Below, piece after piece: positions 25,230-37,873 of a stretch of DNA of 64,000 bases; the stretch's first letter is position 1, and the number at the start of each line of letters is the position of its first letter. This stretch comes from Xylanimonas ulmi. Its GTDB lineage: Bacteria; Actinomycetota; Actinomycetes; Actinomycetales; Cellulomonadaceae. The position numbers and the translations under genes were made by a program. The notes under the pieces were generated by a model, which did not search any database, had not been told where the DNA came from, and saw nothing but the letters and a program-made list of their open reading frames with translations. The stretch covers positions 2,542,001 through 2,606,000 of the forward strand of contig NZ_SGWX01000001.1 in NCBI RefSeq assembly GCF_004216535.1, written 5' to 3'.

Positions 25230-25444
25230 GCGATCCCCTTGCGTGGAGGCTGGTGTTCCCGACTCTAGGGCTGCTCCCACACGTCCCGGCAGGCGCATCG
25301 GGGCCTTTCACCCTGGCCCCCAGCGCAGTTCACCCGCGTCATCCGGCGGCGGCGATCGCGGTGTGCCGGGTCCGAGCGCGACGCGTCACAGGTCGCGGGG
25401 AGCGAGCCCGGCGGCGGCGCGATCCCGCGCCCTAGACTGGCGGC

Positions 25445-25681
25445 GTGCCCTCGCTCGTGCGCATCCTCACCCACCCCGAGTCGCGTCGTCCGGGGCCGCC
25501 GCCGCTGAACGTCGACCTGCGCAAGGTCGTGCTCGCGGGCCTCGCGGCGTGGGCGCTCGCCCTCATCGTCGCGGTGATCCTCGTCGTGGCCGACGTCCAG
25601 GAGTGGCCGGCGATCGCGGTGTGCGTCAGCGGCCTCGCCCTCGGTGGCCTGGGCCTCCTGTGGGCCCGCAAGCAGCGCTGA
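25445..25681 (+). CDS. Small membrane protein, DUF2530 family
   Basis: A 78-residue protein beginning at a GTG. Two hydrophobic helices (about 27-50 and 55-73) are preceded by the PPPLNVDLRKVVLAG segment typical of DUF2530, an actinobacterial family with no established role. It ends in a basic tail WARKQR, predicted cytoplasmic. It is divergent from the sugar transferase and convergent with the GHKL ATPase gene, so it is probably transcribed alone. Confidence 0.7.
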   Translation: MPSLVRILTHPESRRPGPPPLNVDLRKVVLAGLAAWALALIVAVILVVADVQEWPAIAVCVSGLALGGLGLLWARKQR

Positions 25682-25710
25682 CCCCGACCGCAGGCTCAAT
25701 CACCGCGGGC

Positions 25711-28700
25711 TCAACCGCCCCAGGCGAGCGACGTCCACACCGCCTGCGCATCCTCCGGCTGCGCCAGCGCTCGCGCCAGGGCCGCCGCCAGGTGCGGGGC
25801 GCCGAGCAAGTCCGCGAGCGCCCCGGCCAGCGCGTCCTCGCTCGTGGCGTGCGCGACGCCGTCGTGCGCCCAGTACGCGACCGGCACGCCCGCGACCGTG
25901 AGGCGGTCGTGGCGGCGCCACGACGCGGGCAGGCGCGGGTCGAGCGCCGCGACGCGCGCGTCGATCGGCTGCGGCTCACCACCGCCGTCGTGCCCGAAGT
26001 CCTGCCCGGCGTCGCCGGGCGCGGTGTCCGGCGCCCGATCCTGGGCCACCGGGAGGTCGAGCAGGTCCGCGAGCGCGTCGACGGCGCCGGGCGGCGCCGG
26101 GAGCACCGGCCCGAGCTGGGCCCAACGCGAGGCGGGGGCGACGACGACGTCGTCCGCGTCGGCCACCACGATGGCCCCGCCGCGGAGGGCAGGCAACCGG
26201 TCGGGCAGCGAGGCCAGTGCGCTCGCGCGGGCCTCGGGGGCGAGGTCGGCGGCGATCGCCGCGAGCCCACGCCACACGGCGAACGCGTCGGCCAAGGGCA
26301 GCGAGGCGCCCACGGGTGGGAGCGCGTCGAGCACGGTCGGCCAGTCGTCGGGGCCGACGTCACCGAGCGAGCCGACACCGCCGAGCGCGCGCAGCGCCTC
26401 GTCGTCGAGCCCGCGCGCCGCGGCGGGGACCGGGGGCAGGAGCGGGACGTCGTCGTGCAGTGCGAACGGCGCGCCCAGGCGCCGCCGCAGCCACCACGCG
26501 GTGTACGACGGCGCGGGTCCCGCGCCGCGCCGGGCGCCGGCGCCGGGGCGTGGGGCCGCGAGCAGCGTGCGGCGCAGGTCCGGGTCGGAGGCGATGCGGG
26601 CGAGCGCGTCGGGCCAGGATCCTTCCGCGACGGCGTCGAGGTCGGCGACGGCGTCGAGCTCGTCGAACAGGACGTCGGGGCCCCAGTGGTCGGCGAGCGC
26701 GCCGAGGTAGTCGGACCAGCCCGCGAGCCATCCCGCGGGGTCGTCCTCGTTGGCCGGGTCGGGCTCGTCGTCGGGGCCTGGCGTGACGACGTCGCGCACG
26801 GTGTACAGGTCGAGCCCGTCATGGGTGCCCGCGGCCCGCAGCGCGGCGGCGCCGAAGGCCGCGACCTCGCGCGGGTCGACGACGTCGAGGGCGTCGAGGT
26901 GGGTGGCGGCCCACGATCCCGGCAGCGCGGTCTCGCGCAGGGCTGCGAGCCCGCCGGCGACCACCCGCACGGGCATCTCGCCCACCCAGAACGGCGCGCC
27001 GCCTGAGCCTGAGCCTGCGCCAGAGCCCGCGCCCGCGCCCGCGCCCGCGAGCCAGAGGACCGCGTCGACGACGTCGGGCGCGCCGTCGGCGTCGAGCCCG
27101 CTGCCCCGCCCCGCGCGCTCGAAGGACACCGGGCCGGGCTCGCCGCCAGCGTCGAGCGCCTCCTGGGCCGCGGCGAGCGCCGTCGAGCGCACGGCCGGGT
27201 CCGCGAGCACCGCGCGCGGGTCGAACGGCGCCGCGCCGACACGCTCAAGCACGGGGTGCGTGGCCTCGGGGTGCACGACTCGCACGCCCAACGCCTCGGC
27301 CGCGCGCAACGCCGACGCCGCGGCGTCGGTCCCCTGCGGGTGCGGCCGCGCCGCGGCGGACGATCCAGTCGGCTCCGACGCGGTCGCCGGCATCACCAGC
27401 CCGCGCGCGCCGTGCGCCACGCGCCCATCCGCGAGCGGCACCGCGGCGCCCGCAAGCGCCTCACGGACCGCGGGGTCCGCCGCATGCGGCGCGAGCGCCG
27501 CGTAGACCGCCCGCCACTGCGCCGGCGCCATCCCACTCGGCAGGTCCTCAAGCAGGTCGGCCACCGGCGCCACCCGCGCGCCCAGGCGCCGGGCCGTGGT
27601 GTGCAGGGGCGTCGCGAGCGGAACCGCGCCGAGCACCGCGGCGACGTCGGCGTCCTGGCCGAGCGGCCCGACGAGCAGCACCGCGTCGCGTGGCGCGATC
27701 AGCGCGCCGTCGCCTGCGGGCAGCAGCGGCGTCGTGCGCAGCGCGTCGATGGCCGCCTCGCGGATCGCCGCGTCGACCTCGCCCGCCGGCAGGTCGCCCG
27801 GGACCAGGGCGAGCGCCTGCGCGCCGTGCTCGGCGGCGACGTCGGCGAGCAGCGCCGCGTACGCGCGCCCCGCCGCGGCCGCGAGGCGCTCGGTCGCGCG
27901 GCCGGGCAGCACGCGGCGGCGGCCCGGGTCGACCGGGAAGGTCGCCACCAGCAGGGCCGGGAACGTCAGCGGCACGTCGGTCGGGGTGGGCGCGTACAGC
28001 ACCCCGCGCCGCGAGGGCGCCGCGTCACCCGTCGACCCGAGCGCGCCGCCGCTCGACGCGGACCGCGGCAGCGCCCAGACCAGCGACCACGCGGTGCGGC
28101 GCTGCTCGGTGGGCAGGTCCGCGACGTCGTCGGCCGCGAGCTCGCCGTCGGCGTGGCGCGTGAGCCACCGGGACCCGACGTCGTCGAGCATGCGGCGACC
28201 CTCGCCGTCGACCTCGATCACCACCTGGGCGAGCGCGGGCAGCGCGAGCAGCAGCGCGTCGTCGACGGCGTCGAGTTGGGCGCGCACGGCCTCGACGGCC
28301 TCGCGGTCGCGCAGCGTGAGCTCGACGACGGCGCCGTCGCCCGGCGCGGGCTCGGCCGCGAAGGGCAGGCGCAGCACCGCGAGATGGCCGGGCGGCGTGT
28401 CGATCCCGGCCTCGCTGACCTGGGCGCGCGTCGCCGCGGCGGAGAACCGCACACCGCCCGTCGCCGAGCGGATCGTCACGTCGTCGCTCACGGCGCGCAC
28501 CGCGGCGAACCCGACGCCGAATCGGCCGACCTGGCCGGCGCCCTTCGACGACGCGCGCAACGAGGCGAGCGAGGCGACGGCGTCGGCGTCGAGCGGGGCG
28601 CCGGTGTTGGCGGCGCGCAGCACCGGCGCGTCGCCGGACTCGTCAAGCCTCAGCGTGAGGCGGCCGGGCACACCCGCGCGGGCCGCGGCGTCGGCAGCGT

Positions 28701-28854
28701 TCTGGGCGAGCTCGACGACGACGCGGTCGCGGTAGTAGCCGCGGGCGTGGTCCTCTTCGAGGTTGGCGTCCTCGCGCAGACGGGTGGGTGAGGCGCGCCA
28801 CGCGTCCAGGACGGCGCGGCGCAGCGCCTGCGTGCCGAACGGGTCGGCGGTCAC
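25711..28854 (-). CDS. Large sacsin-like GHKL ATPase protein of unknown function
   Basis: About 1047 residues. The N-terminal Bergerat fold (about 30-230) has an N-box VVELAQNAADAAARAG, a glycine turn AANTGAPLDADAV and a lid GQVGRFGVGFAAVRAVS, as in Hsp90 and sacsin N-domains, so ATP binding is likely. The rest has no motif I recognise apart from a low-complexity Ala/Gly/Ser run around residue 830. The GTG start overlaps the stop of the DUF3027 gene by four bases, so both are translated together. A longer open frame on this strand extends through DUF3027 but is only its shadow. Proteins of this layout recur in actinobacterial genomes without a known function. No signal peptide. Confidence 0.75.
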   Translation of the reverse strand: MTADPFGTQALRRAVLDAWRASPTRLREDANLEEDHARGYYRDRVVVELAQNAADAAARAGVPGRLTLRLDESGDAPVLRAANTGAPLDADAVASLASLRASSKGAGQVGRFGVGFAAVRAVSDDVTIRSATGGVRFSAAATRAQVSEAGIDTPPGHLAVLRLPFAAEPAPGDGAVVELTLRDREAVEAVRAQLDAVDDALLLALPALAQVVIEVDGEGRRMLDDVGSRWLTRHADGELAADDVADLPTEQRRTAWSLVWALPRSASSGGALGSTGDAAPSRRGVLYAPTPTDVPLTFPALLVATFPVDPGRRRVLPGRATERLAAAAGRAYAALLADVAAEHGAQALALVPGDLPAGEVDAAIREAAIDALRTTPLLPAGDGALIAPRDAVLLVGPLGQDADVAAVLGAVPLATPLHTTARRLGARVAPVADLLEDLPSGMAPAQWRAVYAALAPHAADPAVREALAGAAVPLADGRVAHGARGLVMPATASEPTGSSAAARPHPQGTDAAASALRAAEALGVRVVHPEATHPVLERVGAAPFDPRAVLADPAVRSTALAAAQEALDAGGEPGPVSFERAGRGSGLDADGAPDVVDAVLWLAGAGAGAGSGAGSGSGGAPFWVGEMPVRVVAGGLAALRETALPGSWAATHLDALDVVDPREVAAFGAAALRAAGTHDGLDLYTVRDVVTPGPDDEPDPANEDDPAGWLAGWSDYLGALADHWGPDVLFDELDAVADLDAVAEGSWPDALARIASDPDLRRTLLAAPRPGAGARRGAGPAPSYTAWWLRRRLGAPFALHDDVPLLPPVPAAARGLDDEALRALGGVGSLGDVGPDDWPTVLDALPPVGASLPLADAFAVWRGLAAIAADLAPEARASALASLPDRLPALRGGAIVVADADDVVVAPASRWAQLGPVLPAPPGAVDALADLLDLPVAQDRAPDTAPGDAGQDFGHDGGGEPQPIDARVAALDPRLPASWRRHDRLTVAGVPVAYWAHDGVAHATSEDALAGALADLLGAPHLAAALARALAQPEDAQAVWTSLAWGG

Positions 28855-29699
28855 TCCGCCTCGGGGGCCACTTCGGGGTCGGCGGGCGCGTCGCCCTGGC
28901 CCGGGGAGGCCTTCGCCTCGGCGGGCGGCGTGACGAGCTCCAGGGTCATCTCGTCGATCAGGGGGTCGGCGGCCGGCCAGTCGGACGGGCCTGACTCCAC
29001 GTCGGTCTCGGAGTGGGCGCCGCAGCCGTGGTCGAGCGAGACGACCTTGCCGTCGTCGGGCGACCACGGGTTGGCGCACACCGCGAACAGCTGCCCCAGC
29101 GGACCGGCGATCGGCACGAGGTAGCCGCACGACACGCACTCGGCGGCCGACGCCACCGCGCCCGCCGACGTCGGACCCTGCGAGCCGCGGTACCAGCGTT
29201 GCGCGGCGTCCTCGCGGCCCCGCGGCGACAGCACGCGCGCCCGGGCCAGCGCCAACTCCTCGATCGCCACCTCGTCGGCCTCGGGGTCGCCCGTGGGCTG
29301 ATACCCGGGCTCGAGCCGCGGGTCGTCGGCCTGGAACGGCATCACGTCGCCCGGGCCGATGTCGCCGGGGCGCAGCCGCTCCGACCACGGCAGCCAGGCC
29401 GGGGAGAGCAGCGCGCCATCGCCGGGCAGCAGCTCGACCTCGCACACCGTCGCGCTGCGCCCGCGCGGCACGCGCGCCAGCGTCACGACCCACGCCCAGC
29501 CCTGGTAGCCGCGCATCGCCGCGGCGAAACGGTGCGAGACCAACCGTTCGGCGTCGATCACCACGCCGAGGTGCTCACCCACGTCCGACGGAGACTCCGC
29601 GACCTGCTGCGCGGCCGCGCGCGCGAGATCGACGGCGCCCGACAGCACCGCCTCCTTGGCGGCACGACGGGGACGGGCCGGGGCCTCGGCAGCACTCAC
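28851..29699 (-). CDS. DUF3027 family protein
   Basis: A 282-residue protein of the actinobacterial DUF3027 family. Recognisable segments are MRGYQGWAWVVTLARVPRG and CEVELLPGDGALLSPAWLPW. Cysteines in AECVSCGYLVPI and a later VCAN, with His in DHGCGAHSE, resemble a zinc site. The C-terminus is acidic and Pro-rich. It overlaps the downstream ATPase gene by four bases (stop TGA inside GTGA) and lies 14 bases from the end of the cold-shock-domain gene. No function is known; its operon partners suggest a shared cellular process. Confidence 0.85.
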   Translation of the reverse strand: MSAAEAPARPRRAAKEAVLSGAVDLARAAAQQVAESPSDVGEHLGVVIDAERLVSHRFAAAMRGYQGWAWVVTLARVPRGRSATVCEVELLPGDGALLSPAWLPWSERLRPGDIGPGDVMPFQADDPRLEPGYQPTGDPEADEVAIEELALARARVLSPRGREDAAQRWYRGSQGPTSAGAVASAAECVSCGYLVPIAGPLGQLFAVCANPWSPDDGKVVSLDHGCGAHSETDVESGPSDWPAADPLIDEMTLELVTPPAEAKASPGQGDAPADPEVAPEAE

Positions 29700-29713
29700 A
29701 GACGTATTGTCCC

Positions 29714-30097
29714 TCAGGCCTCGAAGTCGTCGGCCACGGCGCGCAGCAGCTTCGCCACGCGCTCCCCGGCGTTGCCGTCGGGATAGCGGCCGTGCTTGAG
29801 CGCGTCGCCCACCCGGTCGAGCACCTTGATCAGGTCCTCGACGATGGTCGCCATCTCGGTGGGCGCCTTGCGCTTGGCCTTGGCGACCGACGGCGCGGCG
29901 TCGAGCACCTTGACCGCGAGCGCCGACGGGCCACGGCGGCCGTCGGCCACCCCGTAGTCGACGCGCGTGCCTGGCTTGGGGTTGCTGGCCTCCGCGGGCA
30001 GGACCGAGGCGTGCAGGAAGACCTCGCTGCCGTCGTCGCCGGCGATGAAGCCGAACCCGCGCGTCTCGTCAAACCACTTGACCTTGCCGGTGGGCAC
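29714..30097 (-). CDS. Cold-shock-domain protein with C-terminal extension
   Basis: About 127 residues. Residues 1-65 form a cold-shock domain with the RNA-binding motifs GKVKWFD and GFGFIAGDDG and later EVFLHASVL. The remaining half is a helical extension not found in CspA. I prefer the GTG at 30097, which has GAGG five bases before it; a GTG at 30130 would add 11 residues. It probably binds single-stranded RNA or DNA. It is the first gene of the series with DUF3027 and the GHKL ATPase, and is divergent from the helicase-associated gene. Confidence 0.85.
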   Translation of the reverse strand: MPTGKVKWFDETRGFGFIAGDDGSEVFLHASVLPAEASNPKPGTRVDYGVADGRRGPSALAVKVLDAAPSVAKAKRKAPTEMATIVEDLIKVLDRVGDALKHGRYPDGNAGERVAKLLRAVADDFEA

Positions 30098-30269
30098 CGT
30101 GACCTCGTTCTCGTCGCTGTCTCTCACCACCGCACGCGGGCGTGCGGGGCCGCGACCCGTGCGGGCCGGAGTCCCAGGCTACCGGCCGCCGCCCACCCAG
30201 GGACACCGAAGCGACCGCGGCGGGTCCTGGCGCGCCACGGCACGTCCGCACACGCGTAGCATCGTGAGG

Positions 30270-32882
30270 ATGGCCTCATTCTCCGACGCCGTGCGCGACC
30301 TGTCCGACGACGCGCTCGTTGGTCTGCTGCGCGCGCGTCCCGACCTGGCCTCCCCCTCCCCCTCGACGCTGCGCTCGCTCGCCGCGCGCGCCTCGTCGCG
30401 CACCTCGCTCGAGCGCGCGCTCGCGCAGGCCGACACCCCGACCATCCAGGCGCTGGAGGCCGTGCTCGCGCTTGAGGACGTGCTGCCCGCGGTGCGCGCC
30501 GACGACGTCGCCGCGGCCGTCGGCGCACGGGAGCCCGACGACGTCGCCGCCGTCGCGCGGCTGCTGGACGCGGCCGGCGCGCAGGCGCTGGTGTGGCTCG
30601 CCGCACCCGCCGACGCGGCGCCCGACTGCCCCGAGACGCCCGCCCCGGCGCTGCGCGCCGCGCCGGGGCTGAGCGAGCTGCTCGGCCCGTACCCCGCGGG
30701 GCTCGGCCCGGTGCGTGAGCACGCCGAGCACGCCGAGCACCCCGCGCCCGAGCGCCCCGAGCGCCTGCGCCCTGAGAGCCAGCGACCGGAACCGTCGGCC
30801 AGCGGCGCCACGCCCCACGCCGTCTCCGCAGCGCTCGACGTCGTCACGGCCCCCGCCCGCGCGGTGCTCGACGCGCTCGCCTGGGGACCCCCGATCGGCA
30901 CGCTCCCGCCCACCGGCACACCCGCGCGGGCGGGCGTCGACGAACTGCTGCGCGCCGGGCTGCTCACCGCGGGCGAGGGCGAGACGGTGGTGCTGCCGCG
31001 CGACGTCGGCCTCGCACTGCGCGGCGGGCGCACCCACGCCGACCCGCGCCTGGCCCCTCCCACGCCCGAGGGCCGCCGCCCCGTCACCGCCCAGACCGCC
31101 GACGCCGAGGCCGCGAGCGCCGCGCTCGACGCCGTCCGCCTCGTCGACACGCTGCTGACCTCCTGGCAGGAGACCCCGCCGCCGGTCCTGCGCTCGGGCG
31201 GCCTGGGCGTGCGCGACCTGCGCCGCGCCGCCCAGACGCTCGGCGTCGCGGAGGCGACCGCCGCATCCGTCGTCGAGCTGGCCGCCGCGGCGGGCCTGGT
31301 GGACACCGACGGCGGCGGCATCTCGCCCCCCGCGCGGCGGTCCGGCACGTGGGGCGCCTCGTCCGGCGTCGACGCCCCGCCGTCGTACGTGCCCACCACG
31401 CGCGCCGACGAGTGGGACGAGGCCGAGGCGGCCGAGCGCTGGGCCATGCTCGCCGTCGCATGGGCCGGCAGCCGCCGGATGCCCTGGCTCGCGGGCACCC
31501 GCGACGAGCGCGGGGCCACGCGCGCCCCGCTCAGCACAGACCTGAGCCGCGCCTGGGTGCGGCGCCTGCGCCTGCAGACCCTCGCGGCGCTCGCCCACCT
31601 GGAGGGCGTGTCCGCCACCCCCGACGACGTCGCCGTGGACCTCGCCTGGCGCTCCCCGCGCGCCGTGCCGCCGCGCGAGGCCGTCGACGGACTGCTGCGC
31701 GAGGCCGCCCTGCTCGGAGTGACCGGCGCGGGCGCGCTCGCCGCGACGGGCCGGGCGGTCCTCGCGCTGCTCGACGGCGGCGAGTCGGGTGACGCGGGCG
31801 AGGCCGTCGACGGGCAGGAGGCGGAGGCGGCGCTCGCGGGCACGCTGCGCGCCATGCTGCCCCCGGCCGTCGAGGAGGTGCTGCTGCAGGGCGACCTCAC
31901 GGGGATCGTGCCCGGGCGCCCCTCGCGCGAGCTGGCCGAGCTGCTCGACCGCGCGGCCGACGTCGAGTCACGCGGGGCGGCCACGACCGTCCGGTTCACG
32001 CCCACCTCGGTCACGCGCGCACTCGACGCGGGCCTGACGGGCGAGGAGCTGCTGGCCGAGCTCGCACGCCGCTCCCCCGTGCCCGTGCCGCAGCCGCTCG
32101 ACTATCTGGTGCGCGACACCGCGCGGCGGCACGCGTCGCTGCGCGTCGGGGCGGCGTCGTCGTACGTGCGCTCCGCCGACCCGGCCGCGCTGGCCGGGCT
32201 GGTCGAGGACCTGCGGCTGGCCGACCTGGGCCTGGTCCGGCTCGCGCCCACCGTCGTGGCCGCCGCTGTGCCCGCCGCCCGGCTCCAGGCGGCGCTGCGC
32301 GAGCGCGGCCTGCTCGCCGCGTTGGAGGGGCCCGACGGGCGCCCGCTCGGCCGGCTGGACCGCCCCGAGCGGATCGAGCGCGGCGGGGCCCGCGCCGTCC
32401 GCTCCCCGTACGCGACCGCGGGCGCCCCGACGTCGGACGGCCAACGACGCGCGCTGGTCGAGCGGCTTCGGCTGGCCGACGGCGCGGGGCGGCGCTCGCC
32501 TTTCGCCTCGACCGCGGCGGGCGTGGGCGGCGTCGCCATCTCGGCGCTGGGCCGCACGCCGCCGGCCGCCTCAGGCGGGCCGGGCGCGTCGCGCCAACCG
32601 AGCGGCCACGGCGCGGCGGCCACGCAGGACGCACCGCACGCGCCAGATGACGGCGCCGCGGGAACAGCCACGCCGGGCGACGCGTTGGCCCTGCTGCGCG
32701 ACGCGGTCCGCGACGGCGACCACGTGTGGCTTGAGCTCGTCGACGGCCACGGCCGTCCGCTGCGTCGGCGGGTCCGCCCGCTGCGTGTGGAGGCCGGACG
32801 CCTGCGCGCGCTCGACACCGCCCGTGACGCCGAGCTCACCGTGGCGGTCCACCGCATCTCGCACGTCGAGCCGGACTCGTGA
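30270..32882 (+). CDS. Helicase-associated (Helicase_C_3 / XPB-like N-domain) protein
   Basis: About 870 residues. The start, MASFSDAVRDLSDDALVGLLRARPDL, and the segment near residue 600 on (GNxR-like VPGRPSRELAEL, with RFTPTSVTRALDAGLTG) match the actinobacterial helicase-associated proteins (PF13625 type) that lie next to XPB. No Walker A motif is visible, so it is not itself a helicase. The C-terminal end resembles a small WYL-like beta domain (DGDHVWLELVDGHGRPL). GAGG precedes the ATG. It is followed 76 bases later by the XPB gene and the pair recurs in mycobacteria (Rv0862c-Rv0861c arrangement). It may be the accessory or targeting subunit of XPB. Confidence 0.75.
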   Translation: MASFSDAVRDLSDDALVGLLRARPDLASPSPSTLRSLAARASSRTSLERALAQADTPTIQALEAVLALEDVLPAVRADDVAAAVGAREPDDVAAVARLLDAAGAQALVWLAAPADAAPDCPETPAPALRAAPGLSELLGPYPAGLGPVREHAEHAEHPAPERPERLRPESQRPEPSASGATPHAVSAALDVVTAPARAVLDALAWGPPIGTLPPTGTPARAGVDELLRAGLLTAGEGETVVLPRDVGLALRGGRTHADPRLAPPTPEGRRPVTAQTADAEAASAALDAVRLVDTLLTSWQETPPPVLRSGGLGVRDLRRAAQTLGVAEATAASVVELAAAAGLVDTDGGGISPPARRSGTWGASSGVDAPPSYVPTTRADEWDEAEAAERWAMLAVAWAGSRRMPWLAGTRDERGATRAPLSTDLSRAWVRRLRLQTLAALAHLEGVSATPDDVAVDLAWRSPRAVPPREAVDGLLREAALLGVTGAGALAATGRAVLALLDGGESGDAGEAVDGQEAEAALAGTLRAMLPPAVEEVLLQGDLTGIVPGRPSRELAELLDRAADVESRGAATTVRFTPTSVTRALDAGLTGEELLAELARRSPVPVPQPLDYLVRDTARRHASLRVGAASSYVRSADPAALAGLVEDLRLADLGLVRLAPTVVAAAVPAARLQAALRERGLLAALEGPDGRPLGRLDRPERIERGGARAVRSPYATAGAPTSDGQRRALVERLRLADGAGRRSPFASTAAGVGGVAISALGRTPPAASGGPGASRQPSGHGAAATQDAPHAPDDGAAGTATPGDALALLRDAVRDGDHVWLELVDGHGRPLRRRVRPLRVEAGRLRALDTARDAELTVAVHRISHVEPDS

Positions 32883-32958
32883 CCGACGAGCGTCCCGCAA
32901 TGTCGGCTTCCCGGGCCGCAACACCGACAATCCGGGACGCTCGCGAAAGGAAGTGCCG

Positions 32959-34635
32959 ATGGCCAACGGGCCACTGATCGTCCAGTCGGACAAGTCGCTG
33001 CTGCTGGAGGTCGAGCATCCGCTCGCCGACGAGTGCCGCAGGGCCATCGCGCCGTTCGCGGAGTTGGAGCGCGCTCCCGAGCACGTGCACACCTACCGGC
33101 TGACCAACCTGGGGCTGTGGAACGCGCGCGCCGCGGGGCACGACGCCGAGCAGGTCGTCGACACCCTCATGACGTACTCGCGCTACCCGGTGCCGCACGC
33201 GCTGCTGGTCGACGTCGCCGAGACCATGTCGCGCTACGGGCGCCTGACCCTGCACGCCCACCCCACGCACGGGCTGGTGCTGCAGGCCTCCGACCGCGCG
33301 GTGCTCGCCGAGGTGCTCAAGTCCAAGCGCACCGCAGGCCTGCTGGGCGAGCGCGTCGACGACGAGACGGTCGTCGTCCACCCCTCCGAGCGCGGCCACC
33401 TCAAGCAGGTGCTGGTCAAGCTCGGCTGGCCGGCCGAGGACCTCGCCGGGTACGTCGACGGCGAGAAGCACCCCATCGACCTGTCGACGCAGGCCACCCC
33501 GATCGGAGAGGCCGGGGCGGCGAAGCACTGGGAGATGCGGCCCTACCAGGCGCACGCGGTCGACGCGTTCTGGTTCGGCGGCTCAGGCGTCGTCGTGCTG
33601 CCGTGCGGGGCGGGCAAGACCATCGTGGGCGCCGGCGCCATGGCCAAGTCGGGCACGACGACGCTCATCCTCGTGACCAACACCGTCAGCGCGCGGCAGT
33701 GGAAGGACGAGCTCATCCGCCGCACCACGCTGACCGAGGAGGAGATCGGCGAGTACTCGGGCACGCGCAAGGAGATCAAGCCGGTCACCATCGCGACCTA
33801 CCAGGTGCTGACCACCAAGCGCAAAGGGGTCTACGCGCACCTGGAGCTGCTCGACGCGCGCGACTGGGGCCTGATCGTCTACGACGAGGTACACCTGCTG
33901 CCCGCCCCGATCTTCCGCATGACGGCGGACCTGCAGGCCCGGAGGCGCCTGGGCCTGACCGCGACCCTGGTGCGCGAGGACGGGCGCGAGGACGAGGTGT
34001 TCTCGCTCATCGGCCCCAAGCGCTACGACGCGCCGTGGAAGGACATCGAGGCGCAGGGCTACATCGCCCCGGCCGACTGCGTCGAGGTGCGCCTGACCCT
34101 GCCCGAGTCCGACCGCATGACCTACGCCGTGGCCGAGCCCGAGGACAAGTACCGGCTCGCGGCGACGGCGTCGGGCAAGAACCTGGTCGTCGAGCGCATC
34201 GTCGAGCGGCACCCCGACGACCAGGTGCTTGTCATCGGGCAGTACCTGGACCAGTTGGAGGAGCTCTCGCAGCACCTGAACGCGCCGCTCATCACGGGCG
34301 CCACGACGGTGCGCGAGCGGCAGCGGCTGTTCGACGCGTTCCGCTCGGGTGAGGTGTCACGGCTCGTGGTCAGCAAGGTCGCCAACTTCTCGATCGACCT
34401 GCCCGAGGCGTCGGTGGCGATCCAGGTCTCGGGGTCGTTCGGCTCGCGGCAGGAGGAGGCCCAGCGCCTGGGCCGCGTCATGCGCCCCAAGCACGACGGG
34501 CGCACCGCCCACTTCTACGCCGTCGTCGCGCGCGACACCGTCGACCAGGACTTCGCCGCCCACCGCCAGCGCTTCCTGGCCGAACAGGGCTACGCCTACC
34601 GCATTGTGGACGCGGAGGACTTGGAGGCCGTGTAG
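32959..34635 (+). CDS. DNA repair helicase XPB
   Basis: A 558-residue superfamily 2 helicase of the XPB/ERCC3 type. The N-terminal DNA-damage-recognition domain is followed by Walker A VVLPCGAGKTIV (about 212-222), the DExH box IVYDEVHLLPAP (about 308), motif III LGLTATLVREDGRED with the XPB-specific RED, and motif VI EAQRLGRVMRPKHDGR. It unwinds DNA with 3'-5' polarity in known mycobacterial members. AAAGGAAG precedes the ATG at 32959. It is the second gene of the helicase pair. The 3' end of the gene recurs as a short repeat in the following intergenic region. Confidence 0.95.
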   Translation: MANGPLIVQSDKSLLLEVEHPLADECRRAIAPFAELERAPEHVHTYRLTNLGLWNARAAGHDAEQVVDTLMTYSRYPVPHALLVDVAETMSRYGRLTLHAHPTHGLVLQASDRAVLAEVLKSKRTAGLLGERVDDETVVVHPSERGHLKQVLVKLGWPAEDLAGYVDGEKHPIDLSTQATPIGEAGAAKHWEMRPYQAHAVDAFWFGGSGVVVLPCGAGKTIVGAGAMAKSGTTTLILVTNTVSARQWKDELIRRTTLTEEEIGEYSGTRKEIKPVTIATYQVLTTKRKGVYAHLELLDARDWGLIVYDEVHLLPAPIFRMTADLQARRRLGLTATLVREDGREDEVFSLIGPKRYDAPWKDIEAQGYIAPADCVEVRLTLPESDRMTYAVAEPEDKYRLAATASGKNLVVERIVERHPDDQVLVIGQYLDQLEELSQHLNAPLITGATTVRERQRLFDAFRSGEVSRLVVSKVANFSIDLPEASVAIQVSGSFGSRQEEAQRLGRVMRPKHDGRTAHFYAVVARDTVDQDFAAHRQRFLAEQGYAYRIVDAEDLEAV

Positions 34636-34920: not shown

Positions 34921-37005
34921 GTGAGCCCTGCCGTCACGAGCACGCCGCGCCGCGCGCCCGCACCCCTCGCCGCCCTCGCCGTCGTCCTGCTGGGGGGCGC
35001 GCTCGCGCTCGCCCCGGCGCTCGCGCCCGACGCCGTCGCCCCCGCCGTGCTGAGCGCCGCGCACGCCGACCAGCCGCTGTCGACGCTCGACGGTGAGATC
35101 ACCGACCGGGTGGACGCGCTCGGCGAGCGCACGTCCGACGTGCAGGCGGCGCTCGACCGCGTCGCGGACGCCACGACGTACCGCCTGTTCGTGGTCTACG
35201 TCGACTCCTTCGACGGGCAGGACGGGCGCGGCTGGGCGAACCAGACGGCGAACGCGGCGCACCTGGGCCTCAACGACGTGCTGCTCGCGGTCGCGACCGA
35301 GGAGCGGTCGTTCGGCCTGTCGGTCGACAACAACACCTCGCTGACCACGCAGGACCAGGAGGCCATCGAGAACGCCGCCGTCGACAAGCTGCGGGCCGCC
35401 GCGAACGCCCCGGACGGCGAGGGCGACTGGGCCGCGGCGGCGATCGCGGCCGCGGACGCTCTGGTCGACGTCGCGGGCGGTGGCTCGGGCGGCGGTTCGG
35501 GCGCGGCGGCGCTCGCGGTGGGCGGCGTCGCCGTCGTCGGCGGTGTGGGCGGTTGGCTGTGGTGGCGCCGCCGGCGCAAGGCCGCGGGCCAGCAGGCGGC
35601 CACGAGCCAGGACGAGCTCGCGCGGCTGAGCACCGAGGAGCTCGACAAGCGCGCGGCGAGCGCGCTGGTCGAGATCGACGACGCGCTCAAGACGTCCGAG
35701 CAGGAGCTCGGGTTCGCCCAGGCCGAGTTCGGTGTCGAGGCGACACGCGAGTTCGAGGGCGTGCTCGCTCAGGCCAAGTCGGATGTGTCCGAGGCGTTCG
35801 TGCTGCGCCAGCACCTCGACGACGAGACTCCCGACCCCGAGGCGCAGCGCCGCGAGTGGCTCGCGCAGATCATCCGGTTGGTCGACGGGGCGGGCGACGC
35901 GCTCGACGCGCAGACGTCGTCGTTCGACGACCTGCGCAAGCTCGCCGAGCGCGCGCCGCAGGTGCTCGACGAGACCGCCCAGCGCGCCGACGAGATCACC
36001 GCGCGCATCGCGGTGTCGCACCAGGCCCTCGCCACCCTCGCGGCCACCTACCCGGCGTCCGCGCTCGTGTCGGTCATGTCCAACCCCGAGCAGGCCTCGG
36101 CGCTCGTCGAGGGCGCGCGCGCCGCCGTCGGGCAGGGGCGCGAGGCGCTGGAGCGCAAGGACCGCAACACCGCCGTCGCGCAGGCGCGCGGCGCGCAGAA
36201 CGCGCTGGGGCAGGCGGTGCGCCTGCTCGACGCCGTCGACAACGCGGGCCAGGACCTCGCCGAGGCGGGGCCCAAGCTCGACAAGGGCATCTTGTCGATC
36301 ACGCAGGACATCGCCGACGCCGCACGCCTGGCGCCGATCATCGCCGCGGCGGGTGACGCGACGGTCGACCCGGCGACGGCGGAGGCGCGCGCCGCGGTCA
36401 CCCAGGCGCAGACGGCCCGGCACGGCGGCGACCCGCTCGCCGCGCTCGCGCGCCTGACCGCGGCCGAGGCGGCGCTCGACAAGGCCCTGGAGCCGGCGCG
36501 CGCCAAGGCCGAGGCCGACGCCCGCGCGGCCGCCCTGCTGCGCGACACGCTCGGTCGCGTCGAGTCGCAGGTGCGCGCGACCGACGACTTCATCTCGACG
36601 CGCCGCCAGGCGGTGGGGCCCGACGCGCGCACGCGGCTGGCCGAGGCGATCCGGCTCATCGGCGAGGCGCACGCACTGCAGCAGTCCGACCCCTCCCGCG
36701 CGCTGGCCCGCGCGCAGGAGGCCGAGGCGCACGCGCGCGCGGCCGCCCAGCTCGCGCAGAACGACGTCTCGGGCTGGGGGCAGCAGCAGGGCGGTGGGCC
36801 GAATATCGGCGGCATGGTGCTCGGCGGCATCCTGATCGACTCGATCCTGCGCGGGTCGGGCGGCGGCATCGCCGGTGGGCGCCCACGCTCCGGCGGGGGC
36901 TTCGGCGGCGGGTTCGGCGGCGGCGGATTCGGCGGCGGGCGCTCGGGAGGCGGCGGCGGGAGCTTCGGCGGCGGACGCTCCGGGGGGCGCGGCGGCCGAT
37001 TCTGA
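34921..37005 (+). CDS. Secreted/membrane TPM-domain protein
   Basis: A 694-residue protein. A signal segment LAALAVVLLGGALALAPALA is followed by a TPM domain (about 50-180; YRLFVVYVDSFDG), an extracytoplasmic fold of YgcG/Psb32-type proteins. A membrane helix (about 200-220, VAVVGGVGGWLWW) precedes a basic stop-transfer run. About 420 residues of helical coiled coil follow in the cytoplasm. The C-terminus is a glycine-rich tail with repeated GGFGGG-type units. The GTG start at 34921 follows CGAGGC. It precedes a PspA gene with which it is probably co-transcribed; both would act at the membrane under envelope stress. Confidence 0.85.
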   Translation: MSPAVTSTPRRAPAPLAALAVVLLGGALALAPALAPDAVAPAVLSAAHADQPLSTLDGEITDRVDALGERTSDVQAALDRVADATTYRLFVVYVDSFDGQDGRGWANQTANAAHLGLNDVLLAVATEERSFGLSVDNNTSLTTQDQEAIENAAVDKLRAAANAPDGEGDWAAAAIAAADALVDVAGGGSGGGSGAAALAVGGVAVVGGVGGWLWWRRRRKAAGQQAATSQDELARLSTEELDKRAASALVEIDDALKTSEQELGFAQAEFGVEATREFEGVLAQAKSDVSEAFVLRQHLDDETPDPEAQRREWLAQIIRLVDGAGDALDAQTSSFDDLRKLAERAPQVLDETAQRADEITARIAVSHQALATLAATYPASALVSVMSNPEQASALVEGARAAVGQGREALERKDRNTAVAQARGAQNALGQAVRLLDAVDNAGQDLAEAGPKLDKGILSITQDIADAARLAPIIAAAGDATVDPATAEARAAVTQAQTARHGGDPLAALARLTAAEAALDKALEPARAKAEADARAAALLRDTLGRVESQVRATDDFISTRRQAVGPDARTRLAEAIRLIGEAHALQQSDPSRALARAQEAEAHARAAAQLAQNDVSGWGQQQGGGPNIGGMVLGGILIDSILRGSGGGIAGGRPRSGGGFGGGFGGGGFGGGRSGGGGGSFGGGRSGGRGGRF

Positions 37006-37102
37006 CCAGGACCGGCGTCAGCGGACCACGAACCGGCCGGCGCCCGAGCACCACGGCATCACCTGAGCACGGCCTCATCACTGACGAGAAAGGCACCATC
37101 CC

Positions 37103-37873
37103 ATGACCGCGAAGCAGAGCATCCTGGGGCGCATCGCCCAGCTCACCAAGGCCAACGTCAACGCGCTGCTGGACCGCGCCGAGGACCCGCAGAAGATGCT
37201 GGACCAGCTCGTGCGCGACTACACCAACAACATCGCCGAGGCCGAGCAGGCGATCGCGCAGACCATCGGCAACCTGCGCCTGGCCGAGCAGGACTTCAAC
37301 GAGGACGTCGCGGCCGCGCGCGAGTGGGGCGGCAAGGCCCTGGCCGCCTCGCGCCGCGCCGACGAGTACCGCGCCGCGGGAGACACCGCCAACGCCGACA
37401 AGTTCGACCAGCTCGCCAAGGTGGCGCTGCGCAAGCAGCTCGACGCCGAGTCCGAGGTCAAGCAGGCGCAGCCGATGATCGAGAGCCAGCGCCAGACGGC
37501 CGAGAAGCTCAAGACGGGCCTGGCCGCGATGAAGGACAAGCTGGGCGAGCTCAAGTCGCGGCGCGACTCGCTGGTCGCCCGCCAGAAGTCGGCCCAGGCG
37601 CAGCAGACCGTGCAGACCGCGATCAGCTCGATCAACGTGCTCGACCCGACGAGCGAGCTCGGCCGGTTCGAGGAGACGGTGCGCCGCGAGGAGGCCAAGG
37701 CGATCGGCCAGGCCGAGATCGCGGCGTCGTCGCTCGACGCGCAGTTCGAGGAGCTGACGAAGGCCGACGACGAGATCGAGCTGGAGGCCCGCCTGGCCGC
37801 GCTCAAGTCCGGCAGCACCCCGCCGGCGCAGATCTCGCCGACGTCGGTGACGCCGGACGCCGGGGCCTTCTGA
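37103..37873 (+). CDS. PspA/IM30-family membrane-stress protein
   Basis: A 256-residue helical protein of the PspA/Vipp1 family. MTAKQSILGRIAQLTKANVNALLDRAEDPQKML is the conserved N-terminus with the amphipathic membrane-binding helix, followed by long coiled coils through residue 230. These proteins oligomerise on stressed membranes. It lies 97 bases after the TPM gene and is probably in the same transcript. GAGAAAGG precedes the ATG. A perfect 12-base-stem terminator follows at 37909-37936. The usual PspF regulator partner is absent, as is common in actinobacteria. Confidence 0.92.
   Translation: MTAKQSILGRIAQLTKANVNALLDRAEDPQKMLDQLVRDYTNNIAEAEQAIAQTIGNLRLAEQDFNEDVAAAREWGGKALAASRRADEYRAAGDTANADKFDQLAKVALRKQLDAESEVKQAQPMIESQRQTAEKLKTGLAAMKDKLGELKSRRDSLVARQKSAQAQQTVQTAISSINVLDPTSELGRFEETVRREEAKAIGQAEIAASSLDAQFEELTKADDEIELEARLAALKSGSTPPAQISPTSVTPDAGAF

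Follow-up and report, generated by a model that had tools for sequence, protein, structure and literature searches.

In a 64,000-nucleotide stretch of the Xylanimonas ulmi genome (contig NZ_SGWX01000001.1, positions 2,542,001 to 2,606,000; hereafter the window, to which all positions refer), we analysed three genes that follow one another 5' to 3' on the minus strand: a CspB-type cold-shock gene, a DUF3027 gene, and a gene for a 1047-residue ATPase. Our strongest claim is that DUF3027 and the ATPase form a conserved and often coupled gene pair. Second in strength comes the view that, on its predicted fold, the ATPase is a sacsin/Hsp90-type clamp, and from there we infer a chaperone-like machine with DUF3027 as the partner. 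The best reading, which we offer tentatively, is that the pair constitutes a two-protein machine of the class Actinomycetes, in which an ATP-driven protein clamp would work together with DUF3027. The component families are already known; in the accessible parts of the literature searched, mostly outside subscription papers, we found no description of the DUF3027-ATPase pair and no mechanism for DUF3027. The principal features of the locus are as follows, and the gene coordinates reproduce the gene ends, the 14-base gap between the cold-shock stop (29714) and the DUF3027 start (29699), and the four-base overlap given in an earlier note on this DNA.

29714 to 30097, minus strand: CspB-type cold-shock gene with C-terminal tail (PF00313, E 1.2e-14; full-length match to 9xw3, E 5.7e-30)
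28851 to 29699, minus strand: DUF3027 gene, 282 amino acids (PF11228, 278 bits, E 6e-83)
29013 to 29138, minus strand: Cys-rich, zinc-like part of DUF3027, with C188, C191, C208, C226 and H229 (conservation in 42 sequences)
28851 to 28854, minus strand: GTGA overlap of the DUF3027 stop and the ATPase start (4 bases, from the gene ends)
25711 to 28854, minus strand: sacsin/Hsp90-type ATPase gene, 1047 amino acids, GTG start (NF047352, 70.2 bits)
28690 to 28713, minus strand: ATPase N box, E48 to D55 (E48, N52 and D55 invariant in 43/43 sequences)
28507 to 28527, minus strand: ATPase G2 box GRFGVGF, residues 110-116 (invariant in 43 sequences)

Conservation of the DUF3027-ATPase gene pair

Linkage was counted over 100 of the 124 genomes with a strong ATPase match, namely those for which the place of DUF3027 was listed. 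In 80 of these 100 genomes, DUF3027 is followed on its own strand by the ATPase gene at a distance of at most 1 kb, and the two genes stand within 25 kb of each other, in any arrangement, in 90. A set of 80 named loci, selected by ATPase similarity, holds DUF3027 in the fetched flank of 73, with 72 on the ATPase strand. The linkage in other genomes that the earlier note had singled out for checking is thus conserved, and the arrangement is more than chance. An in-frame 4-base overlap joins the two genes in 34 of 90 same-strand pairs (the ATPase match starts exactly there in 29), most of them from the window's own family and its near kin. Across 40 loci, the pairwise distances of DUF3027 and the ATPase are correlated (Mantel r 0.77, with 0 of 999 permutations as high), a pattern that is expected from joint vertical descent and is not by itself interaction.

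The earlier note had treated the cold-shock gene as part of one operon with the other two. In the named Streptomyces loci, however, the cold-shock domain (CSD) gene stands about 4 kb upstream of DUF3027, so that across the class only DUF3027 and the ATPase make up a tight unit. Of 40 loci fetched around DUF3027, 39 have a CSD match on the same strand and upstream of it; the distance is mostly short within the order and about 3 to 5 kb in the nine loci from elsewhere in the class. A CSD match is also present in 65 of the 80 named loci, in 63 of them on the ATPase strand. The CspB, DUF3027 and ATPase genes are an old, vertically inherited gene neighbourhood. Only position ties CspB to the pair, in whose work this old neighbour may or may not take part, and because CspB is such an old neighbour, ribonucleoprotein quality control is a possible role for the locus.

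DUF3027 was found in all 59 relatives and, within the class Actinomycetes, in 245 of the 246 genomes sampled, nearly always as a single match; a sample of the phylum gave 37 of 248 genomes, 37/37 from the same class, and the control genomes gave 0/14. The window ATPase as a single query matched in 33 of the 59 relatives. Profile A1, built from 19 ATPases, matched in 132 of the 246 class genomes, 124 of them with long or strong matches (E 3.9e-92 or better) and eight with weak ones (E 2.8e-27 to 4.2e-4); in the phylum sample it gave ten matches outside the class, all within the first 233 of 1006 positions (best E 1.4e-28). Judged from these searches, DUF3027 and the full ATPase both look confined to the class, DUF3027 near-universally and the full ATPase in about half of the genomes. 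DUF3027 accompanies the ATPase in 123 of the 124 genomes, and the exception, G452, has the ATPase as a partial match only. In family f87 (for example, genomes G326, G353 and G389), the ATPase frames run to ~1160-1740 residues, and the two genes are unlinked in all ten judged genomes.

Features of the ATPase and of DUF3027

The assignment of the ATPase to the Hsp90/sacsin type, already made in the earlier note, is supported by NF047352, by profile matches to HtpG and sacsin, by SACS matches in relatives, by Foldseek and VIA-align, and by the alignment of motifs. The window ATPase scores 70.2 bits against a cut-off of 50 for NF047352 (sacsin N-terminal domain) and is the only match to this family in its genome. 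It stays below the Pfam cut-offs for HATPase_c (22.4 bits) and for SACS (PF25794; 16.2 vs 32.8 bits); 39 of 43 ATPase relatives match SACS at E 0.01 or better. PF00183 (HSP90) matches neither the window ATPase nor anything else in its genome. Searched against solved structures, the ATPase profile finds HtpG at E 1.2e-5 and sacsin at E 2.7e-4; among the 60 of 132 matches listed, HtpG, TRAP1 and sacsin appear as the best sequence relatives, and there is no gyrase or MutL.

Across 43 ATPase sequences, no variation is seen at E48, N52, D55, N83, G85, GRFGVGF (110-116), R312 or R313, and all 43 retain the catalytic-type Glu and Asn. In the alignment, the G2 box GRFGVGF faces GRFGIGF in sacsin and GQFGVGF in HtpG, and N83, an Asn in 43/43 sequences, faces an Asn in sacsin and the G1 Asp in HtpG. 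By analogy with Hsp90, R312/R313 might provide the middle-domain catalytic arginine, which is a guess.

The AlphaFold model of the ATPase is confident (mean predicted local distance difference test (pLDDT) 88.7, predicted template modelling score (pTM) 0.65), and Foldseek with this model places TRAP1 at the top (E 3e-7). VIA-align over ATPase residues 20-431 gives Z 16.0 to TRAP1 (277 aligned, root-mean-square deviation (rmsd) 4.8) and Z 15.2 to human sacsin SR1 (173 aligned, rmsd 2.9), and the scores to TRAP1, GyrB, sacsin SR1 and topoisomerase VI are ties. Residues 20-431 carry motifs of the sacsin type and are predicted to fold as one module of an Hsp90-like N-terminal domain and a middle domain; the predicted model joins a Bergerat ATPase fold to an S5-type middle domain, as in Hsp90/HtpG. 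In residues 430-1047 (the last ~600), no Pfam family was matched in the window protein; this region gave a weak GYD match (E 0.0041) in one of the 43 relatives, and a profile self-comparison of the C-terminal half gave one weak non-overlapping signal (24.6% probability), from which we claim no internal repeats.

The ATPase therefore resembles two known systems without coinciding with either. Like sacsin, it has Asn where HtpG has the G1 Asp and a G2 box that reads GRFG, scores over the NF047352 cut-off and matches the SR1 fold; unlike sacsin, it is a single ATPase module in whose C-terminal half no DnaJ, HEPN or other Pfam family was matched. This contrast is with animal sacsin as set out in the accessible text of PMC3710099, which describes sacsin as a chaperone. 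With Hsp90/HtpG/TRAP1, the ATPase shares the modelled N-terminal and middle domain fold, the N box and the G2 box, and it differs in the lack of a PF00183 match, in the Asn for the G1 Asp and in its long C-terminal part of another kind. SspH was considered as the same protein and rejected, being, in the accessible text of PMC9137472, a 142-residue HATPase-only protein unlike the ATPase.

The DUF3027 protein covers positions 1-192 of the 193-position PF11228 profile, with its 278 bits standing against a cut-off of 25, and belongs to the same Pfam family as the signature proteins SCO4330, ML2142 and Rv0877. The first two are given as DUF3027 in a list of actinobacterial genes (accessible part of PMC4255298), and the Mycobacterium tuberculosis protein is Rv0877, which one BCG isolate carries frameshifted (accessible part of PMC7781554); papers on Rv0883c were set aside, since, on the latter source, that is a different gene. 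In 42 DUF3027 sequences, H56, F58, Y65, G67, W68, W102, P104 and W105 form an invariant N-terminal block, and towards the C-terminus C226 is invariant, with C188, C191, C208 and also H229 in at least 90%. The four near-invariant cysteines lend substance to the zinc-like character that the earlier note had ascribed to the protein.

The DUF3027 model is good for about residues 11-92 only, where helices and a four-stranded sheet are predicted (mean pLDDT 71.6, the rest poor), and Foldseek returned no match in the PDB at E 0.001 or better. With VIA-align, a designed cystatin-fold protein scored Z 9.4 (76 aligned, rmsd 2.7), a second design scored 8.7, and many unrelated helix-plus-sheet proteins scored about 5 to 7; the modelled cystatin-like arrangement is thus a common one that carries no functional inference. 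Against solved structures, the matches to the DUF3027 profile were all Cys-rich stretches of the scavenger-receptor type (best E 2e-4, positions 205-228), which we took as chance resemblance.

Fourteen class genomes, of families f6 and f19, carry a short DUF3027 with weak scores (E 2.1e-15 to 1.3e-26), and the match extents end by profile position 103 in the six of the 14 for which they are listed. In two such loci (L058, 9924-10199, minus strand; L059, 9976-10245, plus strand), DUF3027 consists of the N-terminal domain and an acidic tail, without the Cys motifs. None of the 14 genomes is among the 124 with long ATPase matches, a pattern that fits, without proving, the idea that the Cys part serves the ATPase; against this idea, many genomes with full-length DUF3027 also have no ATPase. 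The short form is restricted to two families, perhaps through one or two events, and we do not use it as proof.

A phenotype has been linked to the Streptomyces gene. In the accessible part of PMC6585502, a transposon screen names six genes that were hit by more than five insertions in mutants whose actinorhodin was reduced or lost, and SCO4330 is one of the six; the plasmid table of the complementation set in that part does not contain SCO4330. It is possible that the insertion effect reflects polarity on the downstream gene.

A putative two-protein machine and its alternatives

From the observed gene order, conservation and motifs and from the predicted fold, the following scheme can be proposed. 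The sacsin/Hsp90-type clamp, presumably dimeric, would take up ATP in its Bergerat pocket, shut over a protein client by means of its N-terminal and S5-like middle domains, hydrolyse the ATP and then reopen. DUF3027 would be its dedicated partner (an adaptor or co-chaperone) and would contact the ATPase, to which it may be translationally coupled in the window's lineage; it would have a helix-plus-sheet domain at its N-terminus and, towards the C-terminus, a cysteine-rich part that probably holds zinc. A broader claim, for which we have lower confidence, is that Actinomycetes, Streptomyces included, own an ATP-driven protein-remodelling machine apart from HtpG, made of a sacsin-type clamp and a DUF3027 partner with a Cys-rich (zinc) part and encoded beside CspB and XPB. 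If true, sacsin-type ATPases, which are little understood, could be studied in bacteria open to genetics, and DUF3027, a near-universal signature protein of the class to which no function has been assigned, would gain its first. The conserved pair offers a direct, testable partnership in easily engineered strains.

Several observations weigh against the two-protein machine. DUF3027 and the ATPase are far apart or on other contigs in 10 of the 100 genomes, all of family f87; two Kribbella loci and one Actinopolymorpha locus have neither DUF3027 nor CSD in full 10-kb flanks (in L097, L100, L123 and L132, the upstream flanks are short, and their DUF3027 absence cannot be judged); and 122 of the 245 DUF3027-bearing genomes have no long ATPase match. 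Because about half of the sampled genomes keep DUF3027 without the ATPase, DUF3027 must also do something independent of it. Plain vertical inheritance would likewise produce linkage and correlated divergence. In the ATPase itself, the G1-box Asp of HtpG is replaced by Asn (N83), a departure from Hsp90 on account of which ATP binding is not to be assumed. Finally, VIA-align also gives Z 15.3 to GyrB (278 aligned, rmsd 5.4) and Z 15.1 to topoisomerase VI (280 aligned, rmsd 4.5), and because these two match the model no worse than Hsp90, the client may be either protein or DNA.

Part of this evidence suits the leading alternative, which we hold to be somewhat less likely than the two-protein machine: the genes would be neighbours only, lying together in a region (XPB, Helicase_C_3, CspB, DUF3027 and the ATPase) that is passed on vertically and rearranges slowly, perhaps on one transcript, with products that work apart. 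The divergent genes beyond CspB are the following.

30270 to 32882, plus strand: Helicase_C_3 protein, divergent neighbour (PF13625, 130.1 bits)
32647 to 34635, plus strand: XPB-type helicase, open frame (NF045503, 867.9 bits from residue 109 on)

The true start of the XPB-type helicase is probably nearer 32970 than 32647. CSD, Helicase_C_3 and XPB are conserved neighbours too (Helicase_C_3 matches in 54 of the 80 named loci and XPB in 34, with flanks often ending before XPB), and both the retention of DUF3027 without the ATPase and the unlinked state of a whole family (f87) agree with separate work. What speaks against mere neighbourhood is that the same-strand DUF3027-ATPase order persists through a large part of the class, many pairs having 4-base overlaps, whereas CspB drifts kilobases away.

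The same neighbours bear on a second alternative, a good deal less probable, in which the GHKL protein would act on DNA or RNA like the ATPases of MutL, MORC and type II topoisomerases, together with XPB, Helicase_C_3 and CspB. The presence of nucleic-acid proteins among the conserved neighbours and the tie of Hsp90 with GyrB and topoisomerase VI favour this role; the sequence relatives listed above, with HtpG, TRAP1 and sacsin at their head, speak against it, as does the XPB count of 34 of 80 named loci, although flanks often ended before XPB.

The hint of phage defence in the earlier note, according to which the ATPase would be a Tiamat-like defence protein, proved weak, and we regard such a role as improbable. 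The TmtA model PDLC03964 matches the ATPase at E 5.1e-30, the best TmtA model matches 43/43 ATPase relatives, and Tiamat is described as over-represented among Actinobacteria and nearly always chromosomal (accessible part of PMC10482375, whose published counts in Actinobacteria come from pipelines with their own thresholds). The match spans, however, only residues 11-394 of the 1047 in the ATPase and positions 16-415 (400 in all) of the 1538-position model, that is, a shared N-terminal module of about 390 residues, and the ATPase, unlike Tiamat, sits in a conserved chromosomal neighbourhood. Its long matches are confined to the class and its divergence follows that of DUF3027, where defence genes would be expected to be patchy, and among ten neighbouring window proteins PADLOC matched the XPB helicase only (PbeA, E 1.4e-22, helicase part). 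The result carries a caution, as many Actinomycetes have a chromosomal protein, probably without a defence role, whose N-terminal module is matched by TmtA models.

That the ATPase stands in for HtpG, of which the window's genome has no PF00183 match, is very improbable and is contradicted by co-occurrence instead of exclusion over 246 genomes, the ATPase being present in 35 of the 50 that match HtpG strongly and in 89 of the 196 that do not (phylogeny uncorrected).

The cold-shock protein and other observations

The cold-shock protein has one cold-shock domain and a conserved C-terminal tail, which places it in the CspB type; mycobacterial CspB (9xw3) aligns over residues 13-137 of the longer frame, tail included. 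The open frame could begin at 30130 instead of 30097, and a start near 30097, as in the earlier note, is likelier because the alignment begins at residue 13 of the longer frame. SCO4325 is CspB according to the accessible part of PMC9739823, and the literature search found nothing on Rv0871 with CspB. A promoter and terminator scan of 25300-30500 found none, which has little weight in such GC-rich DNA.

Three proteins of 1566-1626 residues from other class genomes (L152, 1357-6237, minus strand; L153, 1237-5937, plus strand; L154, 1500-6299, minus strand) carry the same N-terminal sacsin-type module. Their TmtA matches (E about 1e-44) are better than that of the ATPase and likewise N-terminal only, and their C-terminal parts match PbeA (helicase) and type IV restriction models; going by these matches, they are candidate defence proteins, more plausible as such than the window ATPase. 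Locus L077, titled Sphaerisporangium cinnabarinum, resembles Oerskovia/Cellulomonas in gene order and similarity, and its label may be wrong.

Convergent with the ATPase gene at 25445-25681 (plus strand) lies a small DUF2530 protein (PF10745, 28.7 bits), a family matched in 1 of the 40 loci fetched around DUF3027 and in 0 of the 80 named ATPase loci. Downstream of XPB, at 34921-37873 (plus strand), are a TPM-domain protein and a PspA/IM30 protein, and matches to both occur in the same neighbourhood in several of those 40 loci.

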